Source: Planctomycetaceae bacterium (GTDB taxonomy: Bacteria; Planctomycetota; Phycisphaerae; Phycisphaerales; SM1A02). From it: a DNA stretch of 64,000 nucleotides. Of the stretch, positions 24,850 to 54,840 are shown in pieces. Made by a program: the position numbers and the translations under genes. The DNA is taken from assembly GCA_002684855.1 (NCBI GenBank), contig NYWD01000069.1:23729-87728 (forward strand), in the 5' to 3' direction. The notes under the pieces were generated by a model that searched no databases, was not told the origin of the DNA, and worked only from the letters and a program-made list of their open reading frames with translations. Each line of letters starts with the position of its first letter. Positions within the stretch are counted from its first letter, which is position 1.

Positions 24850-24897
24850 GTCCGGATCCGTGGCTGAACCGCCATGCTCGCCGCTAGAGTGGTGGGC

Positions 24898-30562: not shown

Positions 30563-32041
30563 ATGGCCCGCAAGATCCATCTCGCCGTCGACATCGGCCG
30601 CCGGGCGGTTCGAGTGGCCAGGATCCGGCCGGGCCGCCGGACCGCGCTGGCCGCCACGCTGTTCGAGACCATTCCGCCCGAGATGGATGCGGCGGATCCC
30701 GTGGCCGTCGGTTCGATGCTCGGGCGAGCCATGGCACGGGCGGGCATCGATCCCGGTCCCGCGGTCTTCGCGCTCGATCGCTCGATCACGAGCTTCAAGC
30801 GACTGACCCTGCCCACCGACGACCCCGACGAACTTCCCGACATGGTCCGGCTCGCGGTGGAGCGCGAACTCCCGATCGATGCGGAGGACGCGGTGATCGA
30901 CTTCTCGATCATCGATCGTGGTGCGGACGGGTTCGTGGTCGAGACGGTGGCGGTCCCGCGGCGCGAGATCCAGCGAATCGAGCGGATCGCGGAAGCCGCG
31001 GGGCTGCGCGTCGCCCGCATCGCGCCGCGATGTCACGGTGCGATGCGCCTGGCTGATCCGGTGCAGCCCACGCTCGTCCTGGACGTGACCGGCGAGGGAT
31101 TCGAGCTTGGACTCGTGGAGCAGGGGCGGTTGCGATGGTCGCGAGGGGTGTCGATCGACGGGGCGAACCCCGCCGGACCCACCGCCGACGAACTGGTGCC
31201 CGAGATCCGGCGCAGCTGGCTGAGCTATCGAGTCTCGGCGGGCGAGATCGAGACCCCGATGCTGCTGGTCCTCGGTGGAGAGCAGATCGCCGACGCGGTG
31301 GGGGGGATCTCGGAGGCGACGGGACTCACCGCCCAGCGGTTCATCGGGGACCGTCGCGTGCAGACCGATGTGGACATGCGTGGAGTCTGGCCGCTGGTCG
31401 GGCTGCTGCTTCCCGTGGCGGCCGATCGACGGGGCGACCTCCTTTCGCCGCGACAGGCGCCGGACCGCGCCGCTCGGACCCGGCAACGGGTGCTCGCCTC
31501 GATCGGGCTCGCGATCGTGGCCGGCGGGCTGGGCTGGACGCTCGGAACCCGTGATCTCGCATCGCTCGATTCCCAGGCTTCCGACCTGCGCGGCAAGGCG
31601 ATCGTCGCGAAGGACGAGCACCTTCGATTCAAGCGGGACATGCTTCGGGCCGGTCACCTCGAGGCCTGGGTCGGAGTCCGCCCCGACTGGATCGAGCATC
31701 TGATGGTCGTCGCGGGTCCGGGCCTCGCGGCCGGCGGCACCGTGCTCGACGAGTTCGGCGGAACCCTCGATGCGAAGGACGCCGACTTCGATCGCACGGA
31801 CGACAGCTTCTCGATCGAGGCCGGGGTGAGGATCGCGGTGGAGGGCGAATCCGAGAGTCGCGACGTCGCGGCGAACGTACGCGACGTGCTGGTGGCGGAT
31901 GATCGGTACGTCCTCCGCACGACCGGCGCCGACGCCGAGGGCGGTCGTCGACTCGCGTATCCCTTCGGCTTCATCATGAGGACGACCACGCTCGATCCGG
32001 GATCGGACGTTCCTTCGAGCGATGACGGAGGTGACTCGTGA
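30563..32041 (+). CDS. PilM/GspL-like actin-fold assembly protein with C-terminal PilN-like TM domain
   Basis: MARKIHLAVDIGRRAVRVARI, MVRLAVERELPIDAEDAVIDFSIID typical of PilM; TM at VLASIGLAIVAGGLGWTLG followed by coiled coil. Confidence 0.8.
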   Translation: MARKIHLAVDIGRRAVRVARIRPGRRTALAATLFETIPPEMDAADPVAVGSMLGRAMARAGIDPGPAVFALDRSITSFKRLTLPTDDPDELPDMVRLAVERELPIDAEDAVIDFSIIDRGADGFVVETVAVPRREIQRIERIAEAAGLRVARIAPRCHGAMRLADPVQPTLVLDVTGEGFELGLVEQGRLRWSRGVSIDGANPAGPTADELVPEIRRSWLSYRVSAGEIETPMLLVLGGEQIADAVGGISEATGLTAQRFIGDRRVQTDVDMRGVWPLVGLLLPVAADRRGDLLSPRQAPDRAARTRQRVLASIGLAIVAGGLGWTLGTRDLASLDSQASDLRGKAIVAKDEHLRFKRDMLRAGHLEAWVGVRPDWIEHLMVVAGPGLAAGGTVLDEFGGTLDAKDADFDRTDDSFSIEAGVRIAVEGESESRDVAANVRDVLVADDRYVLRTTGADAEGGRRLAYPFGFIMRTTTLDPGSDVPSSDDGGDS

Positions 32042-33024
32042 AACGCCGGGTCCGCGGCATCATCACGATCACGACGGTGGGCGTCGCGCTCGTGGGTTCG
32101 AGCGTCGCGGGGTGGGCGATCGGATCCGGGCGTCTCGGCGGCGCCCGGGATCAGATCGAGAACCGGATCGCGACCTACCGGAACGTCCTGCTGACGGTTC
32201 GATCCGAGCGCGAGGAGCGACCGGAACTCGACCGCCGGCTCGCGGACGTCCTCGACCGCTCGCTCGGTTCGGAACTCGAGTCCGTGGACAGCGACCTGCG
32301 CAGGAGGCTGGCGGGACTGGCCGAGGCTTCGGGGCTTCGCGAGGCGAGCGTTTCGACGCTCGGAGCCTCGGTGGTGCCCACGCCCGCGGTCCGGGAATTC
32401 TCGAGGTCGGGCAGTGAACGGGCCTTCCGGGAAGAGCCCGATTTCGCCGTCCTCGGTGCGAACGTCTCGGGTCGCGGACCGCTCGATGCGGTCGTTCGTT
32501 TCCTTCACGGACTCGATGCCGCGCCCTGGGTCAAGCGGGTCGAATACGTCCGATTCGACCCCGACCGGGAGGGACGGATCATCTCGTTGAACGCGCGGGT
32601 CTCGACCATCTTCGTCCCCGGCGTCGAGCCGGCGGGCGAACTCGACGTCGAGTCGCCGGAACCGATCCGTCCGATCGGCCGCTACACGTCGATGGTCGAC
32701 GCGAATCCGTTCGCCTTCGAAGTCGAGGTCCCGCCCCCGGTCACGAAGCCCGCGCCGGTGACACCGCCACCGCCGCCGAGGATCGATCCGCGGTCGAGGT
32801 GGATGCTCACGGGGGTCGTGGAAGGACCCGACGGCACCGAAGCCTGGCTTCGGAACGTCGGAAGCAACCAGACCATCGAGCTGCTCGTCGGCGGAAGCCG
32901 ACGGCTGGATCGCGAGGTCGAACTGCAACTGGACTGGGCCGAGGGGGACATCGCAGGATTCCGCGTGGGTGACGAAACCTTCCGGATCCTGATCGGTTCG
33001 ACCCTTGACCGGCCACTTCCCTGA
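32038..33024 (+). CDS. PilO/GspM-like protein with C-terminal PilP/GspC-like small beta domain
   Basis: Single N-terminal TM (ITITTVGVALVGSSVAGWAIG), coiled coil, Pro-rich linker VPPPVTKPAPVTPPPPPR, then WMLTGVVEGPDGTEAWLRNVGSNQTIELLVGG...GFRVGDETFRILIG. ATGA overlap with the PilM-like gene. Confidence 0.6.
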   Translation: MKRRVRGIITITTVGVALVGSSVAGWAIGSGRLGGARDQIENRIATYRNVLLTVRSEREERPELDRRLADVLDRSLGSELESVDSDLRRRLAGLAEASGLREASVSTLGASVVPTPAVREFSRSGSERAFREEPDFAVLGANVSGRGPLDAVVRFLHGLDAAPWVKRVEYVRFDPDREGRIISLNARVSTIFVPGVEPAGELDVESPEPIRPIGRYTSMVDANPFAFEVEVPPPVTKPAPVTPPPPPRIDPRSRWMLTGVVEGPDGTEAWLRNVGSNQTIELLVGGSRRLDREVELQLDWAEGDIAGFRVGDETFRILIGSTLDRPLP

Positions 33025-33260: not shown

Positions 33261-36200
33261 ATGACGAATATCCGGAAGTGCGTTCGGTGGTCCTTGTTCC
33301 TCGCGGTCCTGTTCGGGCCGTGGGGCGGCGGTACGTTGGCGGTCGGGCAGGTGGAAGCCGAGCCGCCGCGACCCGTTCGGGGCGACGACGGGGTGCCGCA
33401 GGTCCGTTTCAACTTCAAGGGCCAGACCTGGGACCAGGTGCTCGACTACTTCTCGCGCGTCACGGCGCTGCCCATCGTCCGGGACGCCGAGGTGCCCGCC
33501 GGCACGGTCGACTACATCAACCCGACGCCGTATCCGCTCCCCCAGGCGCTCGAGACGTTGAACCTCCTCCTGCAGACCCGGGGTCTCGTCCTTCGTGACG
33601 GAAACGGTCGCCTGGTCCTCGAGCAGCTCAAGGAGATCAAGCGCGAGAACATCCCGACCTACATCGGGAGGCTCCCGGACGACGTCACCGCGGACACGCT
33701 GGTGACGGTGATCGTCCCCCTGGTGAACGCGACCGCGGCGTCGGTCTCCGAACAGCTGAAGGAGATGGTCGCGGACTACGGGATGGTGGCCGCGCTTCCC
33801 GAACAGAACTCGCTGCTGCTGGTGGAGACGGCGGCCAACGCGCGGCGCATCCAGCTGATCGTCGACGAGCTCGATCGCGAGGACGTCGAGAACCAGGTCG
33901 ACCAGATCCCGCTCCGGAACTCGAAGGCCGGCGAGATCCTCCCGATCCTCCTCAAGCTGATGAGCGAGCGGGTGGTGAAGACCGTCACCAGGGGCAAGGC
34001 GAAGGTCCAGGTCGAGGAGGACGTGATGCCCGCCGGTTTCCGCATCGCCGCGGACGATCGCACCAACACGATCATCGCCCGGGGCACCCCCCGGCGGATC
34101 GAGCGGCTCCGGGCCGCCATCGACCTGCTCGACGGAGAGAGGCTCGAGGCTTCGACGAACATGCGGACGATCCAGCTCGACCGGCTCACCGTCGCGGAGG
34201 CGAAGGGGCGGCTGGACCAGCTCTTCGCGGGCGTCCCCGAGGAGGATCGGCCCACCTACGTCGTGCTCGACGACACCAATCGCATCACGATCTCCGCCGA
34301 TCCGGCGATGCTCGAGCAGGCCACCCGGTTCCTCGCGGATCTCGAGGGGGCGGGCGAGGGCGCGACGGGCGACGGCGAGTCCGTCGCACTGCTCACGCTG
34401 TCCCATGCGACCCCCGAGGCGGCGATCGCGGCATGCCGGGCGATCTTCACGCCGCGTCAGTCCGCGGTGGTGAAGCTGGTCCCCGGTCCCGACGGTCGGA
34501 GCCTCGTCGCGGCGGGGCCCGTCGCGGATCTCGATTCCGTGCGGAAGACCATCGTGCTCGTGGACCGTCCCGCCCGGGGCGACCGTGAAGTCCGCTACCT
34601 CGAGGTCGACGCGGTCGACCCCGGCACCGCGTTCGCCCGCGCGACCCGGATCTTCGAGGCCGCCGCGGAATCGGATCCGACCCTCGCGGTGGTCACCGAC
34701 TTCGATCCCGCGACCCGACGCCTGGTGATCGAGGGGCCGCGCGAGTCGCTCGACCGGTTCGAGGCGGCGCTCGCCGACGCCCGCGCGTCGATCCGTCCGG
34801 AGACGATGGTCCGCCAGTTCACCGTGGAGTCGGCGCCGCCGAGCCGCCTGGTGGGTTCGATGAACACGCTCTCCCGCGCGATCCTGAAGCCCACGGACGG
34901 TTCCACCTACGTGCCGCCCGACTTCGAGGCGGTCGACGAACTCGACCTGCTCGTCGTCACCGCGACCGCCGACCAGTTCGTCGCGATCGACGGCCTGCTC
35001 CGCACGCTCGACCGTCCGCAGCCCGGTGACGTCACCTATCGCGTGATCCGCATCGGCACGACCGCGGGCGACGTGCTCCTGGAGAAGGCGCTGGCGGCGT
35101 TCGATCGAAAGGCGACGATGCTTGCGGACGGCGATCTGCCGCGCCCCGAGGTCTCGGTCGACGCGTCGACCGGCGTCTTCGAGGTCCTCGGCTCCACCGC
35201 ATCGGTCCAAGCCTTCGAGCGCGCCCTCGCGGAGGCGAGGCAGCTGCTCCCTCCCGAGCCCGTCGGTCGGATGATCGCGATCCGCCAGGCCCGGGCCGCC
35301 GAGCTTCTCGCGCCCCTCCTGGAGATGATCGACCGGACCGTGGCGATCGGCGACGGTCGGGCGATCGCGCCACCGTCCATCGAGGTGGTCACGCCCACCA
35401 ACAGCCTGTGGGTCCGCGGGGACGCGGCGCAGGTACGCACGATCGAGCAGTTCGTCCGGGAGCTCGACGTCTTCGAACCGACCGAGATGCCCCCGTTGCG
35501 GATGCTCCAGCTCTCGGGCAGCGACGCGCAGCAGATCGCCCGGCTGCTGACCAGCCGCTACGACGCCCGGCCGACGGACGTCCGTCGGGAGAAGCCGGTG
35601 CGGATCGAGGCCGACGCCGCGACCAACACCCTGGTGGTGACCGCGCACGAGGCGGTCTTCGACGAGATGAAGACGTTCGTGGATTCGCTCAATCGCAACA
35701 CCGAGACCGAGGCGGAGCGCGAGACGATGATCTTCCCGCTCCGGCTCGCCCGCGCGGTGGATCTCGCCAAGGCGCTCGGGACCCTGTATCCAGAACCGCC
35801 GATGCCCCTGGACACCAGGGGACGTCCGCTGCCCCACCTTCGCCAGCCGCGAGAGGTGTTCGTGAGCGCCGACGCGGGCACCAACACCCTGATCATCGAG
35901 GCGCCGAGCGGTCGACGCACGAGCTTCGAGCAGCTCGTGCAGCAGCTCGACCGCATCGAACTGCCACCGCAGGCGACGCTGAGGACGTGGAACGTCGATC
36001 GCGGCGAGGGTTCGGAGATCGCGAACACGCTGCAGAACCTCGCTCGACAGGGCGTCCTGAGTCGGCCCGGTGCCAACGGGGAGAAGGCGGTCGAGGTCAC
36101 CATCCAGTTCGAACCCCGCAGCCGGACCCTCATCGTCGCGGGCGACGATTTCACCTTCGGCAAGGTCGACGAGATCCTCGCCGATCTCGAGGCGGTCCCG

Positions 36201-39200
36201 GTCAATCGCGCCCTCCGGGTGATCGAGATCACCGCGGGGGACGTGACGGAGATCTCGGGCCGCGCCTCCCGGCTCTTCACGGAACAGACCGAAGGCGACC
36301 CCGACTTCACGGGCGTCGAGGTCGAGGTGGACGCGGTCAACGGCACGATCCTCGCGGTCGGCGAGGACGCCTCGCTGAACCGGTTCTCGCAGATCGTCGC
36401 CCAGCTCGAGTCCGCGCAGGCGAGCCCCCCGGACATCCGCCTCCTCTCGCTGCGACACGGCGAGGCGACGGAGGTCGCCACGATGATCGTCGAACTGCTG
36501 GGGAACGAGCTGGCGATGGCGACGCTCGGGGGCCCGGCTCCCGTCATCGAGGCGTTGCCGCAGGTCAACGCGATCCTGGTGGCCGCGGAACCTCGCGAGC
36601 ACGAGATCATCCGGCAGATCGTCGACACCATCGACACCGCCGACGAGGCGCTGCCGCCGATCCGGATCCTGCAGGTGCGGACCGCCGACGCGGCCAATCT
36701 CGCGAGCGCGCTCGGCCAGACCTACGAACGACGGTCGAACGAGGAGAAGGCCGCGAAGCCGGTTCGAATCAGCGCCGACGTCGCGACCAACGCACTGATC
36801 GTCGCCGCCCACCCGGAGCTGCTGGAGGAGATCCGGGCCATCGTGACGGATCTCAACGACGCGGACCGCCTCGACGCGGAAGGCCGCGAGATCCGGATCT
36901 TCCCGCTTCGAGTCGCCCTCGCCGAGGATCTCGCGAACACCATCGACCAGATGTATCCCGAGCCGCCGATGCCTCGGGACAGCCGGGGACGCCCGAGACC
37001 GGATCTCCAGCAGCCGAGGGAGGTCGTGGTGCGGGCGAACCCCCAGATGAACGCGTTGATCGTCGACGCGCCGATCCAGCGCATGGCCGGTTTCGAGAAG
37101 CTGGTGCAGCAGCTCGACCAGACCCAGATCGTCGACGAGACGGAGATCCGGACGTGGAAGCTCCCGACGGTCGAGCTCGAGGCGGCGGCCCGCACGTTGC
37201 GGGAACTCGCCGACGGGGGACATCTCGGCGGCGGTGATCGCGGCCTCGCCGGCACGATCTCGATCAGCGTCGACGTCGCGAGCGACACGCTGCTGGTGTC
37301 CGGACCGACGGGCATCTTCGATCGCGTCGCGCAGGTGATCGACTCGCTCGAATCCGGTCCCGTGATGCCGGTGACGACCCTCCGCACCTTCCGGCTGGCC
37401 CAGGCCCGGGTCGACTCGGTGGTGCCCATGCTTCGGGAGATCCTCGTCGCCCGGATGACCGAGACGACGGGCCGCGCCGATCGCGAGATCGAGCGGCTGC
37501 TCACCGTCACCTCGGATCGGAAGACCAACACGGTGATCATCTCGGCGCCGGACGTGGTGATGCCGATCGCGGAGCAGCTCATCAAGACCCTCGACTCCTC
37601 CGCGCAGGTCGTCGGGGATCCCACGGTCCGCGTGCGTCCGCTGATGTTCGCGGACGCGGCCGTGGTCGCGGGCGCGCTGCAGCAGGCCCTGCCCGGAATG
37701 ACCAGTCCCGCGACGGGCGAGGCCATGGAGGTCAAGGTGGTCCCCGCCTCGGGGTCGAACGCCCTGCTTCTGGTGGGCATTCCGGAGGAGATCGAGGAGG
37801 TGGAGGTCCTCATCGAACCGCTCGACGCCCGCCCCGCGATCGACGCGATGGACGCCCGGACCTTCGAGCTCGCTCACGCGGATGCGACGCGGATCGCGCC
37901 GATCGTGCAGACGCTGCTCGTGGATCAGCAGAGCAGCGATCCGCGGGTGCTCGTCGAGCGGATCCGGCGGAGTCGCGGGGCGATCGACCTCACGCCGACG
38001 GTGCGGGTCGAAGCCGACGAACGGACCAACAGCCTCATCGTGAGCGGCCCGCAGCCGGCGGTCACGCTCGCGGAGAACCTCATCGAGAAGCTCGACCGTC
38101 CGGACGCGGACGCCGATCTGGTCTACACCACCTTCACGCCGGCGCAGGCCGACGCGACTCGAATCGTGAAGACCGCCCAGACCGTGCTGGATCGCACCCG
38201 TCCCGGCGGGCTTCGCTCGACGCTCGAACTGATCGCCGAACCCGAGACGAACTCGGTGCTGGTCGTCGGGACCCGCGACGAGACCGAGCGAGCCGTCGGC
38301 CTCCTCTCGGAGTGGGACGAGCAGATCCCGGTCCTGCCGCCGGTCGACTTCAAGATCCTGACGATTCGCAACGCCTCCGCGGACGCCGTCGCCGCGGTGA
38401 TCGGGCCGGTGCTTCGCGACCGGACCCGCTGGCCCGTGGCGCTCCGTGACGCCGCCCGGGCCGGACTCGTGGTCTCCGAACCGACGGTCACCGCGGACGT
38501 CGCCACCAATCGGATCCTCGTCTCCGCGCCCGCCGAACTCCAGGCGATCGCCTCGACGCTGGTCCGGGAGCTCGACCAGGCCGATTCGGTCGGCTCGATC
38601 GAGGTCCGCGTGTATCCGGTCACCGCCGGTGGTGCCGCGGACATGGCGGAGGCGCTCCAGCGATCGCTCGACGCCGCGTCCGACGCCCGCCCCGGCGAGC
38701 CGCGTCCGGTCGTCGCCTCCGCGGGTCGATCCGACTCGATCGTGGTGACCGCGTCGCCGCGACTCCAGGAGATCGTCGCCCAGCAGTTCTCGGCAATGGC
38801 GAGTTCCGGCGGCGGGGTGCAGGTCCGGACCGTCTTCCTCGAACACGCCTCCGCCGCCCGGATCGCGCCGCTGGTCGAATCGCTGCTCGCGGAGGATTCG
38901 ATGGTCCAGCCGAGGGATCTCCCGAGCTGGATGCGGGCCGAACTGATGATGGCCCGGGTCCGCGGCCAGATCGACGAGGAGCCGCCGATCCGGGTGCTCC
39001 CCGACGACCGCCTGAACGCGGTCATCGTCACGGGGCCGCTCGCGGCCCTCGACGCCGCCGAACAGCTGGTCGCGCAACTCGACGTCGCGGCGCCCGGTGG
39101 CGGGGGTCGTTCGATCCGAGTGCTCGAGGTGCGGAACGCCGACGCTCGCGAACTGGCGACCACGCTCGACGAACTCTTCGCGGTGGCCGACGACGGGGAG

Positions 39201-42200
39201 GCACCGCCCGCGATCCGGGTGAACGCATCCAGCAACACGCTCCTGGTCCGTGCCACGCCCGGCCAGTTCGAGGAGATCCGCGGCATCGTCGAGGGGATCG
39301 ACGACGCGACGGTCAACGTGGCCCGCGAGCTCCGCACCGTTCCCATCGATCCGGGGCGGGGATCGGCCGAGGACATCGCCCGCATGCTGGAGCGGATGCT
39401 CGATCGAGAGGACGACGACCGGGTCCGCATCGTGCCGATCGAGGAACTCCTCGAACGTTCCAAGACGCCGGACGATCCCGGCCGGAAGACCTCGTCCGCG
39501 GGCCGGCCCGACCCGACCGGCGCGGGCCCGGGTCCGATGGGCCTGATCCGCACCGCCGTGATGGGGATCGCCCTCGCGGCGAATCCGCTCGTCCAGGCCT
39601 CCCCGGCGTCCCCGGCGGAGGTCACGGAGGTGGGGGACCGGGACGCGGTCGACGTGGAGGACGAGGCCGAGATCGTGATCGCGATCGATCCCGAGACGAA
39701 CTCCCTCGTCATCCTCGGCGCCCCTCGCGAACTCGATCGGATCGTCGAACTCGCCGACGAGGTCGAGGACACGCTGCCCGAGGAGGGAAGCGTGATCCGG
39801 ACCGTGCCGCTGCCTGCCGGCGTCGACGTCCGGAACGTGGCCTCCGTGGTGACGCAGACCGTTCGGCAGCTCGTGCCGGCGGGCGGTCGCGCCGGCGATC
39901 TCGGAAGACGGACCTCGGTGGTCGCGGACGCCACGAGCAACTCACTGATCGTGGCCTGTCGCGAGGACGACTTCGCGCTCCTGGCGGACCTGATCGCTTC
40001 GGTCGCCCGACCCGCCGACGCCCCCGAAGTCGTGGTTCGGATCTACCGGCTGGCGGAGATGAGCGCCGATCGGGCCGCGACCGGCCTCGTCTCGCTCCTG
40101 CAGGCCCCCGGACGTTCGCGGTACCGCGAGCTCTCGATCACGCTCGACGGCGACGGTCGTCCGATCGAGGCCCGTTTCGATCCGGCCCTGGTGCGGGTGG
40201 TGGCGGACGCCTCCACGAACGCGCTGGTGGTGATGGCGCCCCGGGAGGCCGTCCCCTTCGTCGATCGGTACGTCGAACTCGCCACCCAGTCCCCGAAGGC
40301 GGAACGGACCACGCTTCGACTCTTCGAGCTTCGCTACGCCAGCGCGACGGAGCTCCAGCGCACGCTCCGGCAGATCTTCCAGACCCGGTTCCGGAACATC
40401 CGGCGAAGCGGCACGGCGACCGCCGCCGAGCCCGACTTCGCGGTGGACGCCCGCAGCAACCAGCTGATCGTGACCGCGAGCACCGAGGAGCTGGCGGAGG
40501 TCGAGACGCTGCTCGAACGCCTCGACGTCGAGGACGGTCGGGAACGCAATCCACTGGCCGTGATCGAACTCGCGGCCGCGAGCCCGTCCGCCGCGGCCCG
40601 GATCCTCGACCAGGCCGTCATCGGCGGCGATGAAAGACTCCGGGCGACCACCCTGGTGCTGCCCGACGACGCCTCCGGCGTGCTCCTGGTCCGCGCCGAC
40701 GAGCCGACGCTCGCGGAGATGAAGGACGTGCTCGGGCGGATCGACCGTGAAGCGACCAGCCGGTTCCCGGTCCGCACGATCGAACTGACCAGGGCCGACG
40801 CCGGCGAGGTGGCGGCCGCGGTGCAGGGCTTCTACGACGATCGCGCCCGTCTCTTCTCGACCGGACGCGGCCGCCGCGCCCAGGCATCCGGAGTGGCGAT
40901 CACCGGGCGGACGGGGGGTGCGACGCTGCTGGTCGCGTGCGACGATCCGACCTTCGAGGAGGTCTCGCAGCTCGCGAGGACCTTCGACGAGAAGGACGGG
41001 AAGGCCGGGTACGAGTACCGCATCTATCCCCTCCGCAACGCACGGGCCAACGAGATCGAGGACACCGTCGAGTCGTTGATCTCGTCGCTCACCCGGAGCG
41101 ACTCGCGCGTCAGCGGATTCGGCTCCCGGTCGCGGAACCGGGACCAGCAGACCCGAAGCGGCCTCGGGAGCATCGCGATCGAGGTGGACGAGCGTCTCAA
41201 CGCCCTCGTGGTCAGCGGGCAGGGGGATCGCTTCGACCTCGTCGAGGAACTGATCGACTCCCTCGACGTCCCGACACCGGACGACGAACGGCGAATCGTC
41301 CGCTACCACCGGATCCCCGCGGCGGACGTGACGCTCCTCGAGGAGGTGCTTTCCGATGCCCTGGGCGGTGGCGAGACCGAACGTCGATGGTGGCGCGACG
41401 ACGACGAGGGGACCGGCGCCAAGATCTTCGCGGACGCCCGTTCCGGCGTCCTGTTCGTGGTGGGAAGCGAGTCCCAGCAGGCGACGGTCGACGCCATCCT
41501 CGACGACTTCGCCGGGATGCTGGTGGACGGCGAATCGGTGGTGGAGATCGTCCGGACCGAATTCGCCGACTCCGACGACGTGGCGCGGGCGGTCGGCCGA
41601 TTCCTGCGTGACCGGGACCGGAGCACCGGCATGTCGGAATCGGTGGTCGTCACGCCGATCGACGACTCGGGAGCGATGATCGTCGCGGGTTCGGACGAGG
41701 ACGTCCGGATGGTGAAGGATCTCGTCGCCCGGATCGATGCGCCGGATCTCACCGGGACCCGGTCGCTCGAGATCGTGGTGATCGAGCGGGGGGACGCCGC
41801 CGAGATGGCGGCGCTGATCGGCGCGCAGTTCGACCGTCGGGGCGGCGACGGCGTGGTCGTGACCCCCGACGCGCGGACCAATTCCGTACTCGTCAACGCG
41901 CCGGCGTCGCTCTACCCGCAGATCGCGGCGCTGATCAAGCGCCTCGATGCGCCGGACGACACCGCCGAAAGCGTGATCCGAACCTACAACCTCGAGGTCG
42001 CGGACGCCGGCGAGGCGACCCGGATCCTCGGCGAGACGCTCCGTCTCGACGAGAACGGCCGGACCACCGGGATCTCCATCGCGGTCGAGGACGATCCCAC
42101 CGCCGCGCCGGTGGAGGTCCAGGCCACGATCGTCGCGGATCGACGCTCCAACTCGATCGTGGTGACCGCGACGAAGGCGAGTCTCCCGGTCATCGAATCG

Positions 42201-45200
42201 ATCCTCGCGAAACTCGAGGAGGCGCCGGCGAGGAGTCCGATCGAATACCGGATCATCCCGCTCGAACACGCTCCGGCGGTCGACGTCTCATTCACGCTCG
42301 ATCGGCTGCTCTTCGCTCGCGGGATCGAGTGGCAGGACGTCGCGGTCGACTTCAACCGCTTCGAGAACCAGCTCATCGTCGGGGCGACGCCGGATCAGTT
42401 CGAGGTCATCGACACGATCCTTTCGGAACTCGACGTGCCCGGGACCCGGACCCGGCGCACCGACTTCGTGGCCCTGCAGTTCGCGGACGCGATGAAGCTC
42501 AAGGACGCCCTCGCGAACTTCTACGGTCCCTACGCCCTGGAAGCCGACACGCCCGGCAAGCAGAACGTCCGGATCATCGCCGACGAGGCGACCAACAGCC
42601 TGGTGGTCACGGCCGCCGAGGAGGAGTGGGCGGGCATCCTCGCCCTGGTCGAGCAGCTGGACAGCGAGGAATACGACGCCTCCCTCCAGCTCGCGGTGAT
42701 TCCGCTGGTCCATGCGGACGCCCGGAGCGTGGCCCGGGCCATCAACGACGCGTTCCGCCCGCAGGTCGAAGCGGCCCGCCGCGGCGGGCGGCAGTCGAAT
42801 CGGGAGGAACCCCGCCAGGCGGACGGTGATCGGCAGGGACGGGACCGCAACGACCAGCCGCCGCCGGTCCTCATGCAGAGCGAGGAGTGGGTGAGCGCCA
42901 GCGCCGAGGTCCAGACCAACTCGCTGGTGGTCTCCGCCAATCGAAAGAACCTCGGGAAGATCGAACGGATCATCGCGCAGCTCGACGTCGCGGACTTCGC
43001 CCGGCTCCCGGCCCCGAGACTGATCCCGGTCGGATCCGGGGATCCGGTTTCGCTCGCGGCCGCCCTGCGCACCATCTATCTCCCCGAAGGCGAGAGCCGG
43101 GGCGGCACCCTCCGGATCGTCGGCGACCGGCAGGCGAACGCGGTCATCATCCGCGCCGACGAGGAGGAGTTCACGCAGATCCGCACCCTCGCGGCGGCGC
43201 TCCAGCAGGAGGCGGACGTCAAGGGCGTCTCGGTGCGGGTGGTCCGGCTCGAATCCGCGCCGGCGGCCCGGGTCGCGGCCTCGGTCCGGGCCGCGTACGC
43301 GACGAAGGCATCGCAGGCGCGGGTCCCCTTCAGCATCGACGTGGACGCGGTCGGCAACGCACTCGTCATCGCGTCGACCGGACCCTTCTTCGACGAGGTC
43401 TCGGGCACCATCCGGGAGATGGACCGGATGGCGCCGGCGGCCGGGCAGGGGATCTTCCTCATCGATCTGGAGAACGTCCCGGCGAGCGTCGCGGAACGCG
43501 CCGTCAAGCGAATCGGACTCGACAAGCCCCAGCCCGCCGACTCCACCTCCCGTCTCGTCGTCGAGCCCATCAAGATCTCGGCGGTCGAGGGGCGGAACGC
43601 GCTGCTGGTCGTCGCGAATCCGGCCGATCGGGAGACCGTGGTGGGGATCCTGAAGGCGATCGACGCCGAGCCGGAGTCGGACCTCGACACCAACGAGGTG
43701 CGAATCGTCCAGTTGCAGCAGGCCGAGGCCGCGGCGGTGGTCGCCCTCATCGACCAGGTGATCGACCCGGCGGGCGGCGGTCCGGACAGCACCGCGATCG
43801 CGGCCGCGGTCAAGGAGCAGATCCGCCGTTTGAACGTGGTCGGCGGGCGGAACGCACCGATCGCCCTCGACCTCGCGAAGCCGATCCGGGTCACCGCGGA
43901 CGTCGCGGGCAACTCGATCCTGATCAGTTCCACCCCGGCGAACACCCGGGCCCTCGTGGAGGTCGCCCGACTGTTCGACCGGCTGCCGACCACCGAGGCC
44001 CTGACCGTCCAGATCTTCCCGCTCGAGAACATGGCCGCGGATCGATTCGTCGCCCTCGTGGACGAACTGTTCGAGCAGGGGCGCGACCTCGCGGTCCTTC
44101 CCGGATCCGACATCCCGGCCCTGCCCGAGGGCGCGATCGGGGAATCGCTCGCCGACCGGGCGGCGCTGACCGTCGACGAGCGGACCAACACCGTGGTCGC
44201 GGTCGGCAAGGAATCCGCGGTCGCCTTCGTCCAGGTGATGGTCGGGAAGCTCGATTCGGAAGTGGGCGCGGGCTGGGTCGAGGCCCGGGTCATCCCGCTC
44301 CGGTACGCGGACGCCGGCGATCTCGCGGAATTCGTCCAGGCGGCGGTGGTCGAGGGCCAGACCGAGATCCCCGGGGCCACGCCCATGCAGCTCCAGGTCG
44401 CCCGGATGCGGGCCATGCGGCAGGGCGGGGACCGTGCGGTCGAGAGCGACATCTTCGTTCCGCTCTCCAGACTCATGGTCAAGGCCGATCCCCAGCTGAA
44501 CGCCCTCGTGGTGGTGGCGAGTCCGCCGAACCTGTCGCTGGTGGAGGAACTGGTCGCGATGCTCGACATCGAGGCCGCGGCGCCCGGCGCCGCGGTCCGC
44601 ATCTACGCGGTGGAGCACGGGTCGTCCGAACGGATCGCCGCGGTCATCCGGCAGTTGTTCGAGCAGCAGTACCAGTCCGGCCTGATTCGCGACGAGGACC
44701 GGATCAAGGCGGTGCCCGACGTCCGGACCAACTCGATCGTGGTCTCGACCAGCGGTCGGAGCTTCGAACTGTTCGAGGATCTCCTCGCGAGGCTCGACGT
44801 CGAGGTGGCGGTCGACTTCCGCGAGATCCGGATCATCGAGCTCGCGAACGCCAGCGCAACCCGGCTGGCTCCGATGATCCAGTCCCTGATGGACGCCCGC
44901 CTCGAGCGTCTTCGCAAGGTCCAGCCCGAGACGGCCGAGCTCGAGCGGGCCGTCATCATGTCCGACTCCCGCTCCAACTCCCTGGTGGTCGCCGCCGGGA
45001 ACGACACCTTCGCGGTGGTCGACCGCCTCGCGTCGGATCTCGATCTGGATTCGATCGGCGACGCCGCGGACATCCGCGTGGTCCCGGTCATCCGGGGCGG
45101 CCTCGAACGGGTCGCGCAGGCGGTGCAGCAGGTGATGGAACGTCGCTACGCGGATCTCCCCGCCGACGTCGCCCGCCGCCAGCGGCCGCTGGTCATCACG

Positions 45201-47621
45201 GATCCCCGGACCAGTTCGCTCCTGGTCGCCGCCAGTCCCGAGGACCGACGCTCGATCGAGGATCTCGTCGAGCGCCTCTCGGAGACCCCGATGAACGCCG
45301 CGGTGGAGATCGAGGTGCTCACCCTCGAGTCGGGATCCGCGAGCGAGATGGCCCCGAGACTCGAATCGCTGATGCGTGACCGGATGCGGAGCCTCGGCGA
45401 CGCCGAGGGACCGAGCGACCGCGTCTCGATCGAGCCGCTGGACGGAAGCAACGCCCTGGTGATCGCCGCCAGTCGGGAGAACCAGGTGGTGGTCCGGGAC
45501 CTGGTCGACGTCCTGGTGCGGGCGCAGTCCGACCGGATCGGCGGGCAGTCCCTCGAGATCATCTCCGTCGCCCGGAACCGGGCGTCCGACCTCGTCGATC
45601 TCGTCGAGGATCTCTACGTCGAGACCGAGAACCGTCGTCGTGGCGAGGACGTCGTGCGGGTGAACGCCGACGACCGCATCAACGCCATCCTCGCGACCGG
45701 CACGCCCGCGGACATCGAGGCGATCCGGGATCTCGTCTCGCGACTGGACTCGGAGCAGCCGAACGCGATCGTCGAGGTCAAGTACGTCCCGCTCGCCTCG
45801 GCCAACGTCCTCGAGACGGTGGCGCTGATCGAGAGCGTGCTCGACGGTGGCGGTGGCCGCCGGGGCCGCTCGGGCCAGCGCGGCACCGTGATGCGGTACC
45901 TGAAGGAGATGAACGGCGTCGATCCCGGGGACGACCCCGATCGCATGGAGGTCGAGGTCTCCAGCGCGATCCGCGATTCGATCGCCCTCACCCCCGACGT
46001 GCGGACCAACACCGTGATCGTCTCCGCGCCGCGGGAGTCGCTGGAACTGATCGAACGGATGATCCGCGATCTCGACACCAGCTCCACGGGCTCGAAGCGA
46101 ATCGAGGTGTTCAAGCTGCAGAACGCCGACGCCGACGCGATGGCGGAGATCCTGACCGAACTCTTCCAGCTCCGGCAGCAGGGGAGCCTCTACGTGCTCA
46201 AGCCGCGGGAGGACGTCACCGCCGTGGTGGAGAGCGCGGGCCTGCCCGGGGGCGAGGTCGAGTCCGAGATGTTCGGCACCGATCTCACGATGGTGCCGGA
46301 CGAGCGACAGGCGTTGTCGATCACCGTCGACAGCCGGACCAACGCGCTCATCGTCTCCGGCACGCCGAAGTATCTCGAACTCGTCGGCGAGGTGGTCACG
46401 GAGCTCGACGCGGAGGAGGCCAACGAGCGGGAGACGCTCGTCTATCCGCTTCGAAACGCGGAGGCGGGCGAGGTCGCCCGGGTGGTCAGCGAATTCGTGA
46501 GCGAGGACCAGCGCAAGCTCGTCGAGACGCTCAACTCCGACCAGCTCCCGTCTGCCGCCCGGCTTCTCGAGCGGGAGGTGACGATCGTCGGCGACGTCAA
46601 GAGCAACGCGGTGCTGGTGAACGCTTCGCCCCGCTACATGGAGCAGGTCGAGTCGATCATCAAGGAACTGGACGTCGATCCCCCGCAGGTCCTGATCCAG
46701 GTCATGCTGGCCGAGATCACGCTGGACGACGATTCCGACTTCGGGGTCACGCTCAACGAGAAGGTCGGGGTCCTTCCGTTGCGGACCACCGGATCGGTCA
46801 ACTACAGCAGCACCGACGTGTTCGGGGCGTTCAGCCAGCCGGTCTCGGGGTCCTTCTCGGTCGGCTTCAGGGACCTCAACCTCGTGCTCAGCGCGATGTA
46901 CGCCCAGGGGCGCCTGCAGCTGCTCTCGAACCCCTCGATCACGGTCGCGAACAACGAGGAGGGCCGGATCCAGGTCGGGCAGGAGATCCGACTGCCCGAC
47001 TCCATCGCCACCTTCGACACCGGAACCCAGAGCACCACGGTGCAGGCCCAGGACGTCGGGATCATTCTCGAGGTCAAGCCCTCGATCAATCCGGACGGCT
47101 TCGTGCGGATGGACATCCGTCCGACGATCTCCCGGCTGAGCGAGAAGACCACGGACATCAGCGAGAACTTCCGGAGTCCCATCATCATCAAGCGGACGGC
47201 GGACACCACGGTGACCGTGAAGGACGGCGAGACGGTGGTCATCGGCGGACTCATCGAGGAGAACAGCGAGCGACGCGACATGAAGATCCCGTTGCTCGGC
47301 GACATTCCGCTGATCGGTGGCCTGTTCCGTTCGGAATCGGAGGTCCGCAGGCGGACCGAACTCCTGATCGTGCTCACGCCGCGGGTGGTCAGCAACTCCG
47401 AGGTGGGCGAGGGATCGCTCCGCGAAATCACGGAGTCGATGGTGGACGACCTCCCCCTCCCCGAGAGGATCCGCAGGCAGATCGGTGGCGGTCGCCTGCA
47501 GGGCGGGGACAGCGAACTCGGAGCGGCGTTCGAGCCCATCGAGGAGCCCGAGGAGCGGAAGGAACCGGGCGAGGCCAGGTCGGACGAGGACGAACCCGAA
47601 GTGACGGAAGAAGAGGCCTGA
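33261..47621 (+). CDS. Giant type II/IV secretin (GspD-like), 4,786 aa, with about 50 tandem NolW/N1-like domains
   Basis: Signal peptide MTNIRKCVRWSLFLAVLFGPWGGGTLAVGQ; N0-like FNFKGQTWDQVLDYFSRVTALPIVRDAEVPAGTVDYINP; dozens of (D)xRTNSLVVSA...LxxxLD units; secretin domain VLIQVMLAEITLDDDSDFGVTLNEK...LKDGETVVIGGLIEENSERRDMKIPLLGDIPLIGGLFRSESEVRRRTELLIVLTPRVV. Start 33261 preferred over 33183 because of the signal peptide. Confidence 0.93.
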   Translation: MTNIRKCVRWSLFLAVLFGPWGGGTLAVGQVEAEPPRPVRGDDGVPQVRFNFKGQTWDQVLDYFSRVTALPIVRDAEVPAGTVDYINPTPYPLPQALETLNLLLQTRGLVLRDGNGRLVLEQLKEIKRENIPTYIGRLPDDVTADTLVTVIVPLVNATAASVSEQLKEMVADYGMVAALPEQNSLLLVETAANARRIQLIVDELDREDVENQVDQIPLRNSKAGEILPILLKLMSERVVKTVTRGKAKVQVEEDVMPAGFRIAADDRTNTIIARGTPRRIERLRAAIDLLDGERLEASTNMRTIQLDRLTVAEAKGRLDQLFAGVPEEDRPTYVVLDDTNRITISADPAMLEQATRFLADLEGAGEGATGDGESVALLTLSHATPEAAIAACRAIFTPRQSAVVKLVPGPDGRSLVAAGPVADLDSVRKTIVLVDRPARGDREVRYLEVDAVDPGTAFARATRIFEAAAESDPTLAVVTDFDPATRRLVIEGPRESLDRFEAALADARASIRPETMVRQFTVESAPPSRLVGSMNTLSRAILKPTDGSTYVPPDFEAVDELDLLVVTATADQFVAIDGLLRTLDRPQPGDVTYRVIRIGTTAGDVLLEKALAAFDRKATMLADGDLPRPEVSVDASTGVFEVLGSTASVQAFERALAEARQLLPPEPVGRMIAIRQARAAELLAPLLEMIDRTVAIGDGRAIAPPSIEVVTPTNSLWVRGDAAQVRTIEQFVRELDVFEPTEMPPLRMLQLSGSDAQQIARLLTSRYDARPTDVRREKPVRIEADAATNTLVVTAHEAVFDEMKTFVDSLNRNTETEAERETMIFPLRLARAVDLAKALGTLYPEPPMPLDTRGRPLPHLRQPREVFVSADAGTNTLIIEAPSGRRTSFEQLVQQLDRIELPPQATLRTWNVDRGEGSEIANTLQNLARQGVLSRPGANGEKAVEVTIQFEPRSRTLIVAGDDFTFGKVDEILADLEAVPVNRALRVIEITAGDVTEISGRASRLFTEQTEGDPDFTGVEVEVDAVNGTILAVGEDASLNRFSQIVAQLESAQASPPDIRLLSLRHGEATEVATMIVELLGNELAMATLGGPAPVIEALPQVNAILVAAEPREHEIIRQIVDTIDTADEALPPIRILQVRTADAANLASALGQTYERRSNEEKAAKPVRISADVATNALIVAAHPELLEEIRAIVTDLNDADRLDAEGREIRIFPLRVALAEDLANTIDQMYPEPPMPRDSRGRPRPDLQQPREVVVRANPQMNALIVDAPIQRMAGFEKLVQQLDQTQIVDETEIRTWKLPTVELEAAARTLRELADGGHLGGGDRGLAGTISISVDVASDTLLVSGPTGIFDRVAQVIDSLESGPVMPVTTLRTFRLAQARVDSVVPMLREILVARMTETTGRADREIERLLTVTSDRKTNTVIISAPDVVMPIAEQLIKTLDSSAQVVGDPTVRVRPLMFADAAVVAGALQQALPGMTSPATGEAMEVKVVPASGSNALLLVGIPEEIEEVEVLIEPLDARPAIDAMDARTFELAHADATRIAPIVQTLLVDQQSSDPRVLVERIRRSRGAIDLTPTVRVEADERTNSLIVSGPQPAVTLAENLIEKLDRPDADADLVYTTFTPAQADATRIVKTAQTVLDRTRPGGLRSTLELIAEPETNSVLVVGTRDETERAVGLLSEWDEQIPVLPPVDFKILTIRNASADAVAAVIGPVLRDRTRWPVALRDAARAGLVVSEPTVTADVATNRILVSAPAELQAIASTLVRELDQADSVGSIEVRVYPVTAGGAADMAEALQRSLDAASDARPGEPRPVVASAGRSDSIVVTASPRLQEIVAQQFSAMASSGGGVQVRTVFLEHASAARIAPLVESLLAEDSMVQPRDLPSWMRAELMMARVRGQIDEEPPIRVLPDDRLNAVIVTGPLAALDAAEQLVAQLDVAAPGGGGRSIRVLEVRNADARELATTLDELFAVADDGEAPPAIRVNASSNTLLVRATPGQFEEIRGIVEGIDDATVNVARELRTVPIDPGRGSAEDIARMLERMLDREDDDRVRIVPIEELLERSKTPDDPGRKTSSAGRPDPTGAGPGPMGLIRTAVMGIALAANPLVQASPASPAEVTEVGDRDAVDVEDEAEIVIAIDPETNSLVILGAPRELDRIVELADEVEDTLPEEGSVIRTVPLPAGVDVRNVASVVTQTVRQLVPAGGRAGDLGRRTSVVADATSNSLIVACREDDFALLADLIASVARPADAPEVVVRIYRLAEMSADRAATGLVSLLQAPGRSRYRELSITLDGDGRPIEARFDPALVRVVADASTNALVVMAPREAVPFVDRYVELATQSPKAERTTLRLFELRYASATELQRTLRQIFQTRFRNIRRSGTATAAEPDFAVDARSNQLIVTASTEELAEVETLLERLDVEDGRERNPLAVIELAAASPSAAARILDQAVIGGDERLRATTLVLPDDASGVLLVRADEPTLAEMKDVLGRIDREATSRFPVRTIELTRADAGEVAAAVQGFYDDRARLFSTGRGRRAQASGVAITGRTGGATLLVACDDPTFEEVSQLARTFDEKDGKAGYEYRIYPLRNARANEIEDTVESLISSLTRSDSRVSGFGSRSRNRDQQTRSGLGSIAIEVDERLNALVVSGQGDRFDLVEELIDSLDVPTPDDERRIVRYHRIPAADVTLLEEVLSDALGGGETERRWWRDDDEGTGAKIFADARSGVLFVVGSESQQATVDAILDDFAGMLVDGESVVEIVRTEFADSDDVARAVGRFLRDRDRSTGMSESVVVTPIDDSGAMIVAGSDEDVRMVKDLVARIDAPDLTGTRSLEIVVIERGDAAEMAALIGAQFDRRGGDGVVVTPDARTNSVLVNAPASLYPQIAALIKRLDAPDDTAESVIRTYNLEVADAGEATRILGETLRLDENGRTTGISIAVEDDPTAAPVEVQATIVADRRSNSIVVTATKASLPVIESILAKLEEAPARSPIEYRIIPLEHAPAVDVSFTLDRLLFARGIEWQDVAVDFNRFENQLIVGATPDQFEVIDTILSELDVPGTRTRRTDFVALQFADAMKLKDALANFYGPYALEADTPGKQNVRIIADEATNSLVVTAAEEEWAGILALVEQLDSEEYDASLQLAVIPLVHADARSVARAINDAFRPQVEAARRGGRQSNREEPRQADGDRQGRDRNDQPPPVLMQSEEWVSASAEVQTNSLVVSANRKNLGKIERIIAQLDVADFARLPAPRLIPVGSGDPVSLAAALRTIYLPEGESRGGTLRIVGDRQANAVIIRADEEEFTQIRTLAAALQQEADVKGVSVRVVRLESAPAARVAASVRAAYATKASQARVPFSIDVDAVGNALVIASTGPFFDEVSGTIREMDRMAPAAGQGIFLIDLENVPASVAERAVKRIGLDKPQPADSTSRLVVEPIKISAVEGRNALLVVANPADRETVVGILKAIDAEPESDLDTNEVRIVQLQQAEAAAVVALIDQVIDPAGGGPDSTAIAAAVKEQIRRLNVVGGRNAPIALDLAKPIRVTADVAGNSILISSTPANTRALVEVARLFDRLPTTEALTVQIFPLENMAADRFVALVDELFEQGRDLAVLPGSDIPALPEGAIGESLADRAALTVDERTNTVVAVGKESAVAFVQVMVGKLDSEVGAGWVEARVIPLRYADAGDLAEFVQAAVVEGQTEIPGATPMQLQVARMRAMRQGGDRAVESDIFVPLSRLMVKADPQLNALVVVASPPNLSLVEELVAMLDIEAAAPGAAVRIYAVEHGSSERIAAVIRQLFEQQYQSGLIRDEDRIKAVPDVRTNSIVVSTSGRSFELFEDLLARLDVEVAVDFREIRIIELANASATRLAPMIQSLMDARLERLRKVQPETAELERAVIMSDSRSNSLVVAAGNDTFAVVDRLASDLDLDSIGDAADIRVVPVIRGGLERVAQAVQQVMERRYADLPADVARRQRPLVITDPRTSSLLVAASPEDRRSIEDLVERLSETPMNAAVEIEVLTLESGSASEMAPRLESLMRDRMRSLGDAEGPSDRVSIEPLDGSNALVIAASRENQVVVRDLVDVLVRAQSDRIGGQSLEIISVARNRASDLVDLVEDLYVETENRRRGEDVVRVNADDRINAILATGTPADIEAIRDLVSRLDSEQPNAIVEVKYVPLASANVLETVALIESVLDGGGGRRGRSGQRGTVMRYLKEMNGVDPGDDPDRMEVEVSSAIRDSIALTPDVRTNTVIVSAPRESLELIERMIRDLDTSSTGSKRIEVFKLQNADADAMAEILTELFQLRQQGSLYVLKPREDVTAVVESAGLPGGEVESEMFGTDLTMVPDERQALSITVDSRTNALIVSGTPKYLELVGEVVTELDAEEANERETLVYPLRNAEAGEVARVVSEFVSEDQRKLVETLNSDQLPSAARLLEREVTIVGDVKSNAVLVNASPRYMEQVESIIKELDVDPPQVLIQVMLAEITLDDDSDFGVTLNEKVGVLPLRTTGSVNYSSTDVFGAFSQPVSGSFSVGFRDLNLVLSAMYAQGRLQLLSNPSITVANNEEGRIQVGQEIRLPDSIATFDTGTQSTTVQAQDVGIILEVKPSINPDGFVRMDIRPTISRLSEKTTDISENFRSPIIIKRTADTTVTVKDGETVVIGGLIEENSERRDMKIPLLGDIPLIGGLFRSESEVRRRTELLIVLTPRVVSNSEVGEGSLREITESMVDDLPLPERIRRQIGGGRLQGGDSELGAAFEPIEEPEERKEPGEARSDEDEPEVTEEEA
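33660..46680 (+). repeat. Tandem protein-domain array: about 50 diverged NolW/N1-like units (about 80 aa average)
   Basis: By-eye count of about 52 beta-strand signatures of type D-x-x-T/S-N-x-hhV-x-A/G followed by hxxhxxLD (e.g. DDRTNTIIARG, DAATNTLVVTA, DERTNSLIVSG, DARTNSVLVNA, DVRTNTVIVSA, DSRTNALIVSG). Confidence 0.85.
35485..37390 (+). repeat. Recent supra-repeat duplication inside the secretin array (period about 1,164-1,167 nt)
   Basis: LYPEPPMPLDTRGRPLPHLRQPREVFVSADAGTNTLIIEAP versus MYPEPPMPRDSRGRPRPDLQQPREVVVRANPQMNALIVDAP; anchors at 35787/36954 (1167 nt) and 35598/36762 (1164 nt). Confidence 0.8.
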
Positions 47622-47628: not shown

Positions 47629-48213
47629 GTGAAGCATCGACCGCGAATCATCGGATCGAGGCGGAAGGGCCGGGGGATCGTCGCGACCCTCGTCGCGTCG
47701 ACGGCGGTGCTCGCCGGTTGCGTGACGGACTCGATCGAATCCACCACCGGCCGACCGCTCCCGCCCGATCCCCGCGAGGTTCCGCCGGCGTCGGCGGGAG
47801 ATCCCATCAACGCGATCTCGGTGTTGAAGTCGCAGCAGCCGATCGACACCACCGGGAACGGTTTCCCGAACCTGCTCGGCGTCGGCGTCTATCTCTTCGC
47901 GAGGCCCTATCCCATCCCGAGGTTCGCGACCGGGACGCTGGTCTTCGACCTCCACGAGCCGGGGGTCTTCGACGTGGTGCGGAACGCGGCCCCCCCCGCG
48001 ATCGCGACCTGGACGCTCGGTCCGCAGGAGATGGCCGCGGCGCAGGTCGACAACCTGATCGGGCCCGGCTACCAGATCTCCCTCGATCTCGGGACCATCG
48101 GACTGAGCGAACTGTCGGTGGACAGCGCGGACCTGGTGGTTCGATTCGTCCCGGCCGACGGAAGCGAGCCGGTGACCTCCTCGGTGCAGCGGGTTCCGTT
48201 CCGACTCTTCTGA
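47629..48213 (+). CDS. Lipoprotein of unknown function (candidate secretin-associated lipoprotein)
   Basis: GTG start 7 nt after the secretin stop; lipobox STAVLAGC. Confidence 0.65.
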   Translation: MKHRPRIIGSRRKGRGIVATLVASTAVLAGCVTDSIESTTGRPLPPDPREVPPASAGDPINAISVLKSQQPIDTTGNGFPNLLGVGVYLFARPYPIPRFATGTLVFDLHEPGVFDVVRNAAPPAIATWTLGPQEMAAAQVDNLIGPGYQISLDLGTIGLSELSVDSADLVVRFVPADGSEPVTSSVQRVPFRLF

Positions 48214-50078: not shown

Positions 50079-50999
50079 TCAGTTGCGCGGGTGGTGGCTC
50101 CGGACCACCTCGCGCAGCTGGGTTCGATCGACGTGGGTGTAGACCTGGGTGGTCCCGATGTCCGCGTGGCCGAGGAGGTCCTGCACCACGCGGAGATCCG
50201 CCCCCCCGATCAGCAGGTGGGTCGCGAAACTGTGTCGCAGCTTGTGCGGATGGACGTCCCGCATGCCCGCCACGTCGGCGTACTTCCGGACGATCTGCCA
50301 GACCGCGACCCGTTCGAGGGGTCGTCCGCTGAAGGAGAGCAGGAGATGGGCGAGGTCCCGGCCGTCGTCGAAGCGAAGCAGGTCGGGTCGGACCTCGGCG
50401 AGGTACTTCAGGGTCCATTTCACCGCGGGATCGCCGATCGGCACGACCCGCTGCTTCGAGCCCTTGCCGGTGACGGTGAGGCTCGCGAGCGTCTCGTGGA
50501 ATTCGTCGAGGCGGAGCGCCGTGACTTCGCTCGCCCGCAGGCCCGCCGCGTACATGAGTTCGAGCAGGGCCCGGTCCCGGACCCACAGTCGCCCGTGCTC
50601 GGGCGCCGGAGCCTCCACGAGCTTCCGCATCTGGATCGGACTGATCACGCCCGGAACCCGCTTCCAGCGGGTGGGTCGTTCGAGCAGGCGGGCCGGATCC
50701 CTGCGGATCCGCCCGTTCGCGCAGAGCCAGCGGAAGAAGACCCGCGCCGTCGCGAGATGCCGGGTGATGGTGGTGGGTTCGAATCCGCGGTCGCGGCTCA
50801 GGCCGCGGAGATGCTCGGCGAGATCGTTCGGTCCGACGTCGTCGACGGACTCGACGCCGTTGGATCGAAGGGTGCCGACGAGGTCGCCGAGATCCCGGCC
50901 GTACGCCTCGAGCGTCGCGGGCGCGAGGCCCGCTTCGATCCGGACGTAGGTGAGGAAGTCACGAACCGGTCGGTCGAAGCCGGAGCGAGTCGCCGTCAT
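50079..50999 (-). CDS. Tyrosine recombinase XerC/XerD
   Basis: YAAGLRASEVTALRLDEF, HKLRHSFATHLLIGGADLRVVQDLLGHADIGTTQVYTHVD. Confidence 0.93.
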   Translation of the reverse strand: MTATRSGFDRPVRDFLTYVRIEAGLAPATLEAYGRDLGDLVGTLRSNGVESVDDVGPNDLAEHLRGLSRDRGFEPTTITRHLATARVFFRWLCANGRIRRDPARLLERPTRWKRVPGVISPIQMRKLVEAPAPEHGRLWVRDRALLELMYAAGLRASEVTALRLDEFHETLASLTVTGKGSKQRVVPIGDPAVKWTLKYLAEVRPDLLRFDDGRDLAHLLLSFSGRPLERVAVWQIVRKYADVAGMRDVHPHKLRHSFATHLLIGGADLRVVQDLLGHADIGTTQVYTHVDRTQLREVVRSHHPRN

Positions 51000-52095: not shown

Positions 52096-52844
52096 ACTAC
52101 GGACTCTGGATGTCGGCGGCCGGGCTCTCGACCGAGATGCATCGGCAGGACGTGATCTCCAACAACCTCGCCAACGCGCAGACCGCCGGTTTCAAGGCGG
52201 ACCACACCTACACCCGGGAGCGTCCGGTCGCCCGGGAGGAACTGGGCGCCGACGTCCCCGCCCAGCTGCTGCTGGAGCGACTCGGCGGCGGCGTCCTGGC
52301 GGAGCCGACCTGGACGAACTTCGGCCAGGCGGGTTTCACCGCGGGGGGCGATCTCGATCTCGCGATCAGCGGATCGGGGTTCTTCGTCGTCCGTGACGGC
52401 GACGGCGAGGCCTTCACCCGTGACGGGGCGTTCAACCGTGGCGTTCGCGGCGAGCTCGTCGACGGCGACGGCCGCCCGGTGATGTCCGTCCGAGACCGCC
52501 CGATCCGTCTTCCGGAGACCGGAGAGATCTCGATCGGCGAGGACGGTTCGATCGTCGTCGACGGCGAGTCGGTCGATCGCGTCCGGATCGCCGGACCCGA
52601 TGCCGACCGTCTTCGCAAGGACGGTGACAACCTCTATCGATACACCGGCGTCGGAAAGGTCCCCGACGCGGGGCCCGACGTCTTCGTCAAGCAGGGATGG
52701 ATCGAGGATTCGGGCGTCGACCCGATTCGCAGCATGACCGATCTCGTGGCGTCCAGCCGCGCCGTCCAGGCTTCCGCCCGCTTCATCGACCTCCACGATC
52801 GAATGATGGAACTCGCCGTGAACCGCCTCGGTGCGGTCGCCTGA
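52092..52844 (+). CDS. flgF: Flagellar basal-body rod protein FlgF
   Basis: MNYGLWMSAAGLSTEMHRQDVISNNLANAQTAGFKAD; DLAISGSGFFVVRDGDGEAFTRDGAF; C-terminal rod motif. Confidence 0.85.
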   Translation: MNYGLWMSAAGLSTEMHRQDVISNNLANAQTAGFKADHTYTRERPVAREELGADVPAQLLLERLGGGVLAEPTWTNFGQAGFTAGGDLDLAISGSGFFVVRDGDGEAFTRDGAFNRGVRGELVDGDGRPVMSVRDRPIRLPETGEISIGEDGSIVVDGESVDRVRIAGPDADRLRKDGDNLYRYTGVGKVPDAGPDVFVKQGWIEDSGVDPIRSMTDLVASSRAVQASARFIDLHDRMMELAVNRLGAVA

Positions 52845-52884
52845 TCCCGAACCCCGAACGATCACGCACTCTGGAACCACGACC

Positions 52885-53691: not shown

Positions 53692-53733
53692 TCCGGCATC
53701 GCCCGTGCCCTCCACCACGTCGGAGACGTCTTC

Positions 53734-54789: not shown

Positions 54790-54840
54790 ATCATCCCCGC
54801 GATCGCGACACGCCGATCGCCGTTCCCTGAAAGGCCCTTC

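Follow-up and report, generated by a model that had tools for sequence, protein, structure and literature searches.

Secretins are textbook channels of 600–900 residues, and the gene described here encodes one of 4,786. Is this a real gene, what kind of secretin does it specify, and what might so long a protein build? The gene (33261–47621, forward strand) lies in the window, by which we mean the whole 64,000-nucleotide stretch of DNA, from a marine planctomycete of the order Phycisphaerales, that was analyzed; its source assembly is fragmented (178 contigs) and 64% complete. The original prediction described a single uninterrupted frame with an N0-like domain, ~52 diverged repeats, and a single C-terminal secretin domain, took the periplasmic array to be expanded more than tenfold, and inferred a specialized secretion channel or a structure that spans the envelope. 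It called for domain counts with the Secretin_N (PF03958) and Secretin (PF00263) profiles, AlphaFold models of array segments, and a search of relatives.

Frame, domains and predicted fold

The frame from 33261 to 47621 is open throughout, without stop codons, and its translation is a 517-kDa protein with a pI of 4.6 and four cysteines. A GGAG sequence stands ~8 bases 5′ of the ATG, and the GC3 signature of the frame is of the real-gene type. The N-terminal region (33261–33371, forward strand; MTNIRKCVRWSLFLAVLFGPWGGGTLAVGQ...) is a signal peptide as inferred from sequence alone.

In a Pfam search with the full protein, Secretin_N matched 47 separate stretches for a total of 1,199.9 bits, and a single Secretin domain (E = 8e-50) was found at residues 4546–4710 (46896–47390), where the IPLLGDIPLIGGLFR signature also lies; the protein thereby meets the criterion for the secretin superfamily, a C-terminal PF00263 domain with a pore signature. 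An iterated HMM, seeded with the protein's own units and then with those of relatives, gave 52 matches between residues 151 and 4477 (33711–46691) at a mean pitch of 83 residues, 48 of them with E < 1e-5, whereas 20 shuffled protein sequences gave none. Divergence is strong in several units (unit E-values of 1e-3 to 1e-6). A low-complexity insert of 66 residues (2062–2127) splits one unit and a clear unit at residues ~592–666 was missed by the HMM; the two errors cancel, leaving a net total of ~52. The linkers that join neighboring units have a median length of only ~2 residues. Beyond the pore domain, a variable C-terminal tail (47391–47621) contains an LPLPERIRRQI helix motif, detected by regular expression and shared by many proteins of the family to which the window belongs; the tail is a possible pilotin-binding S-domain, a function that is inferred. 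The array, pore domain, and tail are all encoded on the forward strand.

An AlphaFold2 model of residues 38–370 had a mean pLDDT of 79, and its best Foldseek match was PulD (6hcg, E = 1.6e-15), followed by XcpQ N0–N2 and GspD N0–N2 (3ezj). This model supports assignment of the predicted N-terminal domain (residues ~44–150; 33390–33710, forward strand) as an N0 of the GspD/PulD type. The model of mid-array residues 1055–1530 (36423–37850, forward strand; mean pLDDT 75) contained six successive units, each with strand-helix-strand-strand-helix topology, and every one of its 34 PDB matches at E ≤ 0.001 was a secretin. Values of pTM for these monomer segment models were only 0.29–0.40, and the relative arrangement of neighboring units is therefore unresolved. 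The 47 Pfam stretches, the predicted six-unit fold, and the Foldseek matches together satisfy the criterion for ring-building domains. Both the profile counts and the segment model thus bear out the architecture originally proposed, including the uninterrupted frame, the N0-like fold, an array of ~52 ring-building domains rather than the usual three, and one secretin domain at the C terminus.

Operon context and assignment to GspD

The giant gene is the last gsp gene of a type II secretion system (T2SS) operon on the forward strand. In this operon, gspF for the inner-membrane platform protein (24874–26082; PF00482, E = 8.8e-53) and gspG for the major pseudopilin (26221–26733; PF08334, E = 3.1e-25, with an N-methylation motif) precede a gene for a pseudopilin-like protein (26645–27511), which lacks a Pfam match and is probably, if tentatively, GspH on the basis of its position and an N-terminal type IV pilin-like segment (RGLTLLEIIVVISILLAAGAIAV). 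The next frame (27444–28781) encodes a GspJ-like pseudopilin in its C-terminal part (PF11612, E = 1.4e-5; N_methyl from residue 200), with a true start probably near residue 190. It is followed by a gene for a GspK-like minor pseudopilin (28484–30520; HHH_3, E = 2e-10; T2SSK, E = 0.0046), which is conserved upstream of giants and whose true start is probably downstream, and by a gspL-like gene (30563–32041; PF05134, E = 0.001), which is conserved and, in almost every locus, separated from the giant by a single gene. The gene immediately 5′ of the giant, at the GspM position (32038–33024), is also conserved and encodes 328 residues with one membrane segment, a proline-rich stretch, and a C-terminal domain of ~75 residues. 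This protein is a candidate inner-membrane partner of N0, with docking inferred. PDB and Pfam profile searches for a GspC-like domain in it yielded nothing convincing and no T2SSC match, and T2SSB matches were weak and confined to 2 of 24 relatives.

On the downstream side, a lipoprotein gene (47629–48213, forward strand; lipobox LAGC) begins ~7–8 bases past the secretin stop codon, and its homologs lie directly 3′ of most giants. The product, which has no Pfam match, is a pilotin candidate by inference. In many relatives, this lipoprotein has a D-x-x-G-N-G-like motif and a TSDGRPMPPxP-like stretch. The K–L–M genes upstream and the lipoprotein gene downstream recur around most giants. Among 12 genomes of the window's family without a listed giant, none had a full-length GspM-position protein (one, G026, gave a marginal partial match), compared to four of four giant-bearing controls; the giant and its operon thus appear to come and go together.

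GspC (T2SSC, PF11356) was not found in this incomplete genome, and GspE is not encoded in the operon; T2SSE-type ATPases sit on other contigs. Reading the ORF at 22975–24849 as GspE proved wrong, as its 3′ part resembles a PEP-CTERM-type exported protein. The exported acidic protein encoded there (~23929–24849), directly upstream of gspF, ends in PGPAMLPAVFAAAGLLRRRRR, a PEP-CTERM-like sorting signal, and is possibly a surface protein linked to the secretion system.

Against the NCBIfam GspD equivalog TIGR02517, the giant scored 1,149.9 bits compared to a cut-off of 351. This score is summed over repeats, and the best stretch (residues 4243–4714) covers positions 126–594 of the 600-position model. 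In phmmer searches, solved T2SS secretins (GspD/PulD) matched residues 4351–4717 with a best E of 1.7e-43. Two other GspD criteria are also met, namely an N-terminal N0 of GspD type and T2SS pseudopilin and platform neighbors (F, G, J, K, and L in the window and in most relatives), but a third, three ring-building domains (N1–N3) in ~600–800 residues, is failed outright. The criteria for PilQ, AMIN domains and a pilMNOPQ context, are not satisfied, as the Pfam result on this protein contained no AMIN domain and its neighbors are T2SS genes. Judged from these sequence data, the protein is the GspD secretin of the T2SS operon, and its ~52 domains are an architectural departure that makes it a variant of GspD; assembly into an oligomeric channel and export of folded proteins are inferred. 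The specialized secretion channel of the original prediction is supported in this form, as a GspD that closes a T2SS operon; that it spans the envelope is inferred. Four further secretin genes are present elsewhere in the same genome.

Compared to known GspD/PulD proteins (Klebsiella PulD 6hcg, E. coli and Vibrio GspD), the giant has N0, Secretin_N, the pore signature, and F–G–J–K–L partners in common but differs in having about 52 ring-building domains instead of three, no T2SSC partner that could be found, and a lipoprotein gene directly downstream. Thermus thermophilus PilQ likewise carries additional ring-building domains in the stretch that separates N0 from the pore, but it has only five of these plus N0 in 757 residues and serves a type IV pilus and DNA uptake rather than a T2SS. 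PilQ (N0–N5) forms six stacked rings of 13 protomers, 350 Å long, a length that the authors of that work connect with a wide periplasm (PMC5745081, PMC4463427), and the ring-building motif of the giant array is the one that forms these six rings (PMC5745081). Another of the closest structural matches to the mid-array segment was the secretin DR_0774 of Deinococcus (8co1, titled 'Type II Secretion System'), which matched in sequence as well but, at 740 residues, differs from the giant in size.

Relatives, selection and evolutionary history

Secretins of 3,100–5,100 residues were common among 121 genomes searched around the window's lineage. We fetched 40 of these giants, from the same genus, family, and order, and found the same design in proteins of 3,109–5,088 residues with 30–54 detected units; several are encoded in single-contig genomes (G017, G040, G082). 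Within the family of the window, and in f2 and f4 as well, best-match units are collinear end to end. The shorter giants lack whole blocks of units; entire units have been gained or lost, with one-to-one orthology otherwise kept. In two of the 40 (L019 of f6 and L031 of f5), collinearity with the giant of the window is confined to the region near the C terminus. Both ends of the giants are conserved, and the length of the middle varies. Concerted evolution of near-identical repeats in the window gene was rejected because most units best match their positional counterparts in other species; only the pairs 7–8/12–13, 17/21, and 22/12 stand out as similar within the array.

Compared to four congeners, omega was 0.08–0.18 throughout the array and 0.04–0.09 in the pore domain. 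The whole array is under purifying selection, evenly along its length. That the gene is an artifact of an in-frame join, a decaying gene, or a functionless neutral repeat expansion is thus hardly credible. The fragmented source assembly leaves room for such an error, but the frame has no stop codons, omega is low along the array, and giants recur across the class, and the collinear genes of relatives together with the single-contig genomes rule out an assembly join.

In a survey of 299 genomes of the class Phycisphaerae, at least 70 had secretin frames of ≥3,000 residues, a count also lowered by contig ends, and the class survey and local search combined place giants, with 30–63 units, in at least 12 families. 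The largest secretin seen in this analysis (L140, G159:C18) has 6,169 residues and 63 detected units, and its units 21–44 comprise closely similar multi-unit blocks that reflect recent block duplications. Families f17 and f19 have mostly secretins of 1,650–1,910 residues, and the three analyzed (L146–L148) each have 15 detected units; these forms look like the starting point of the giants. In sister lineages (L151, L152, L153, L155), two of which belong to the same families as giants, an F–G–K–L–M–D gene order carries an ordinary GspD of 632–809 residues in the giant's slot. Outside the class, the longest secretin frame listed in a draw over Planctomycetota had 1,495 residues. Secretins of 1,200–1,500 residues are common there in families f49 and f83.

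Giant arrays have in common a C-terminal core of ~12 units, outside of which they fall into three mutually non-collinear sets (f1/f2/f4; f5/f6/f15/f16/f25; f8/f22/f28). A tree of the pore region grouped f1/f2/f4 with support of 100/100, joined f8/f22/f28 to forms with 15–22 units with support of 99/98, and supported the f5/f6/f15/f16/f25 set only weakly. From unit order and this tree, we infer a 12–15-unit ancestor and at least three separate expansions, although loss plus deep divergence is not excluded. A single origin of all giant arrays is unsupported, given their non-collinearity beyond the core, with deep divergence again not fully excluded. Unit number was weakly related to genome size (rho 0.36, n = 30, p 0.05, uncorrected for kinship).

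A proposed trans-periplasmic tube and its alternatives

In known secretins, each N domain contributes one ring to the stack. We consider it fairly probable, without regarding the matter as settled, that this GspD and its N-domain stack form a very long trans-periplasmic tube with a span set by domain copy number; stacking, span, docking, the pilotin role, and the link to periplasm width are all inferred. The C-terminal domain would be the pore in the outer membrane, N0 at the opposite end would dock to the inner-membrane platform, perhaps via the GspM-position protein, and the ~52 ring-building domains would stack as rings, probably of 12–15 protomers each. At 2.5 nm (the size of such a domain) to 4 nm (one-sixth of the length of PilQ without its pore) per ring, the tube would be ~130–200 nm long, with a mass of 7.8 MDa as a 15-mer. 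This reading rests on the retention of N0, the pore, and very short linkers, together with a short candidate inner-membrane partner. Linkers of ~2 residues are easier to reconcile with stacked rings than with loosely strung domains. The GspM-position protein has few residues, and genomes that lack the giant also lack its gene, so N0 should sit near the inner membrane. In PulD, N0 lies at the base and is the docking site of PulC, which connects PulD to the inner membrane (PMC6882859). Such a tube could keep the secretion machine joined across a wide and variable planctomycete periplasm; strong, variable enlargement of the periplasm has been described in the class Planctomycetia (PMC5394234), and its extension to Phycisphaerae is inferred. 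Counting against the tube is its requirement for an equally long pseudopilus; in addition, GspE is missing from the operon, GspC was not found, no oligomer is known, and there is no independent measure of span.

A different possibility is a flexible or folded-back periplasmic strap, in which 12–15 long chains would extend from a ring complex of ordinary size, bind peptidoglycan, substrates, or partners, and tether the machine. A rigid tube of 130–200 nm would be hard to fit in an ordinary periplasm, the AlphaFold models leave the angle between neighboring units unfixed, the sequences of several units have diverged strongly, and long low-complexity stretches are inserted in some, such as residues 2062–2127. 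Nevertheless, the units abut, the ring-building fold is kept in the modeled segment, N0 and the pore domain are both retained, and purifying selection is even along the array, and we judge a strap unlikely, although worth keeping in view. T2SSs and type IV pili share component types, and the same parts might instead form a pilus or uptake machine, in which the channel would house a long pseudopilus-type fiber that pulls polysaccharide or DNA into the enlarged periplasm, as has been suggested for planctomycetes generally, rather than exporting proteins. Planctomycetes have been proposed to use pili as polysaccharide 'fishing rods' (PMC8882080, PMC5394234), but the gene content is T2SS-like (GspF, GspG with a T2SSG domain, GspK, GspL, and the GspD family), the genome has four more secretin genes at other sites, and reports on cultured Phycisphaerae describe crateriform pits as absent or not observed; we regard an uptake role as improbable.

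If the tube reading is correct, the predicted envelope structure is big enough for a direct view by cryo-tomography and bears on the open question of how macromolecules move across the unusual planctomycete periplasm. A broader proposal, that Phycisphaerae make trans-periplasmic secretion tubes of 100–200 nm out of single giant polypeptides, which would be the longest known secretins, that ring number is an encoded ruler of membrane distance, and that this arose in at least three independent expansions, is tentative and could easily fail. With 30–63 ring domains across the class, secretin architecture is extended by an order of magnitude, and the natural variants (15, 22, and 30–63 units) suit tests of whether the span of a secretion machine is set by how many rings it has. 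Our searches of an open-access library turned up no mention of giant secretins in planctomycetes; preprints and subscription papers were outside the scope of our search, and novelty is thus unproven. In species descriptions of Phycisphaerae, the label 'giant genes' is reserved for those longer than 15 kb, a threshold that most giant secretin genes narrowly miss.

Elsewhere in the window, a tyrosine recombinase gene (50079–50999, minus strand) precedes flagellar genes of the FlgE/F/G, FlgA, and FlgH types (52831–55578), and an RND pump operon (8148–14153) includes genes for an outer-membrane efflux protein and an AcrB-type transporter.
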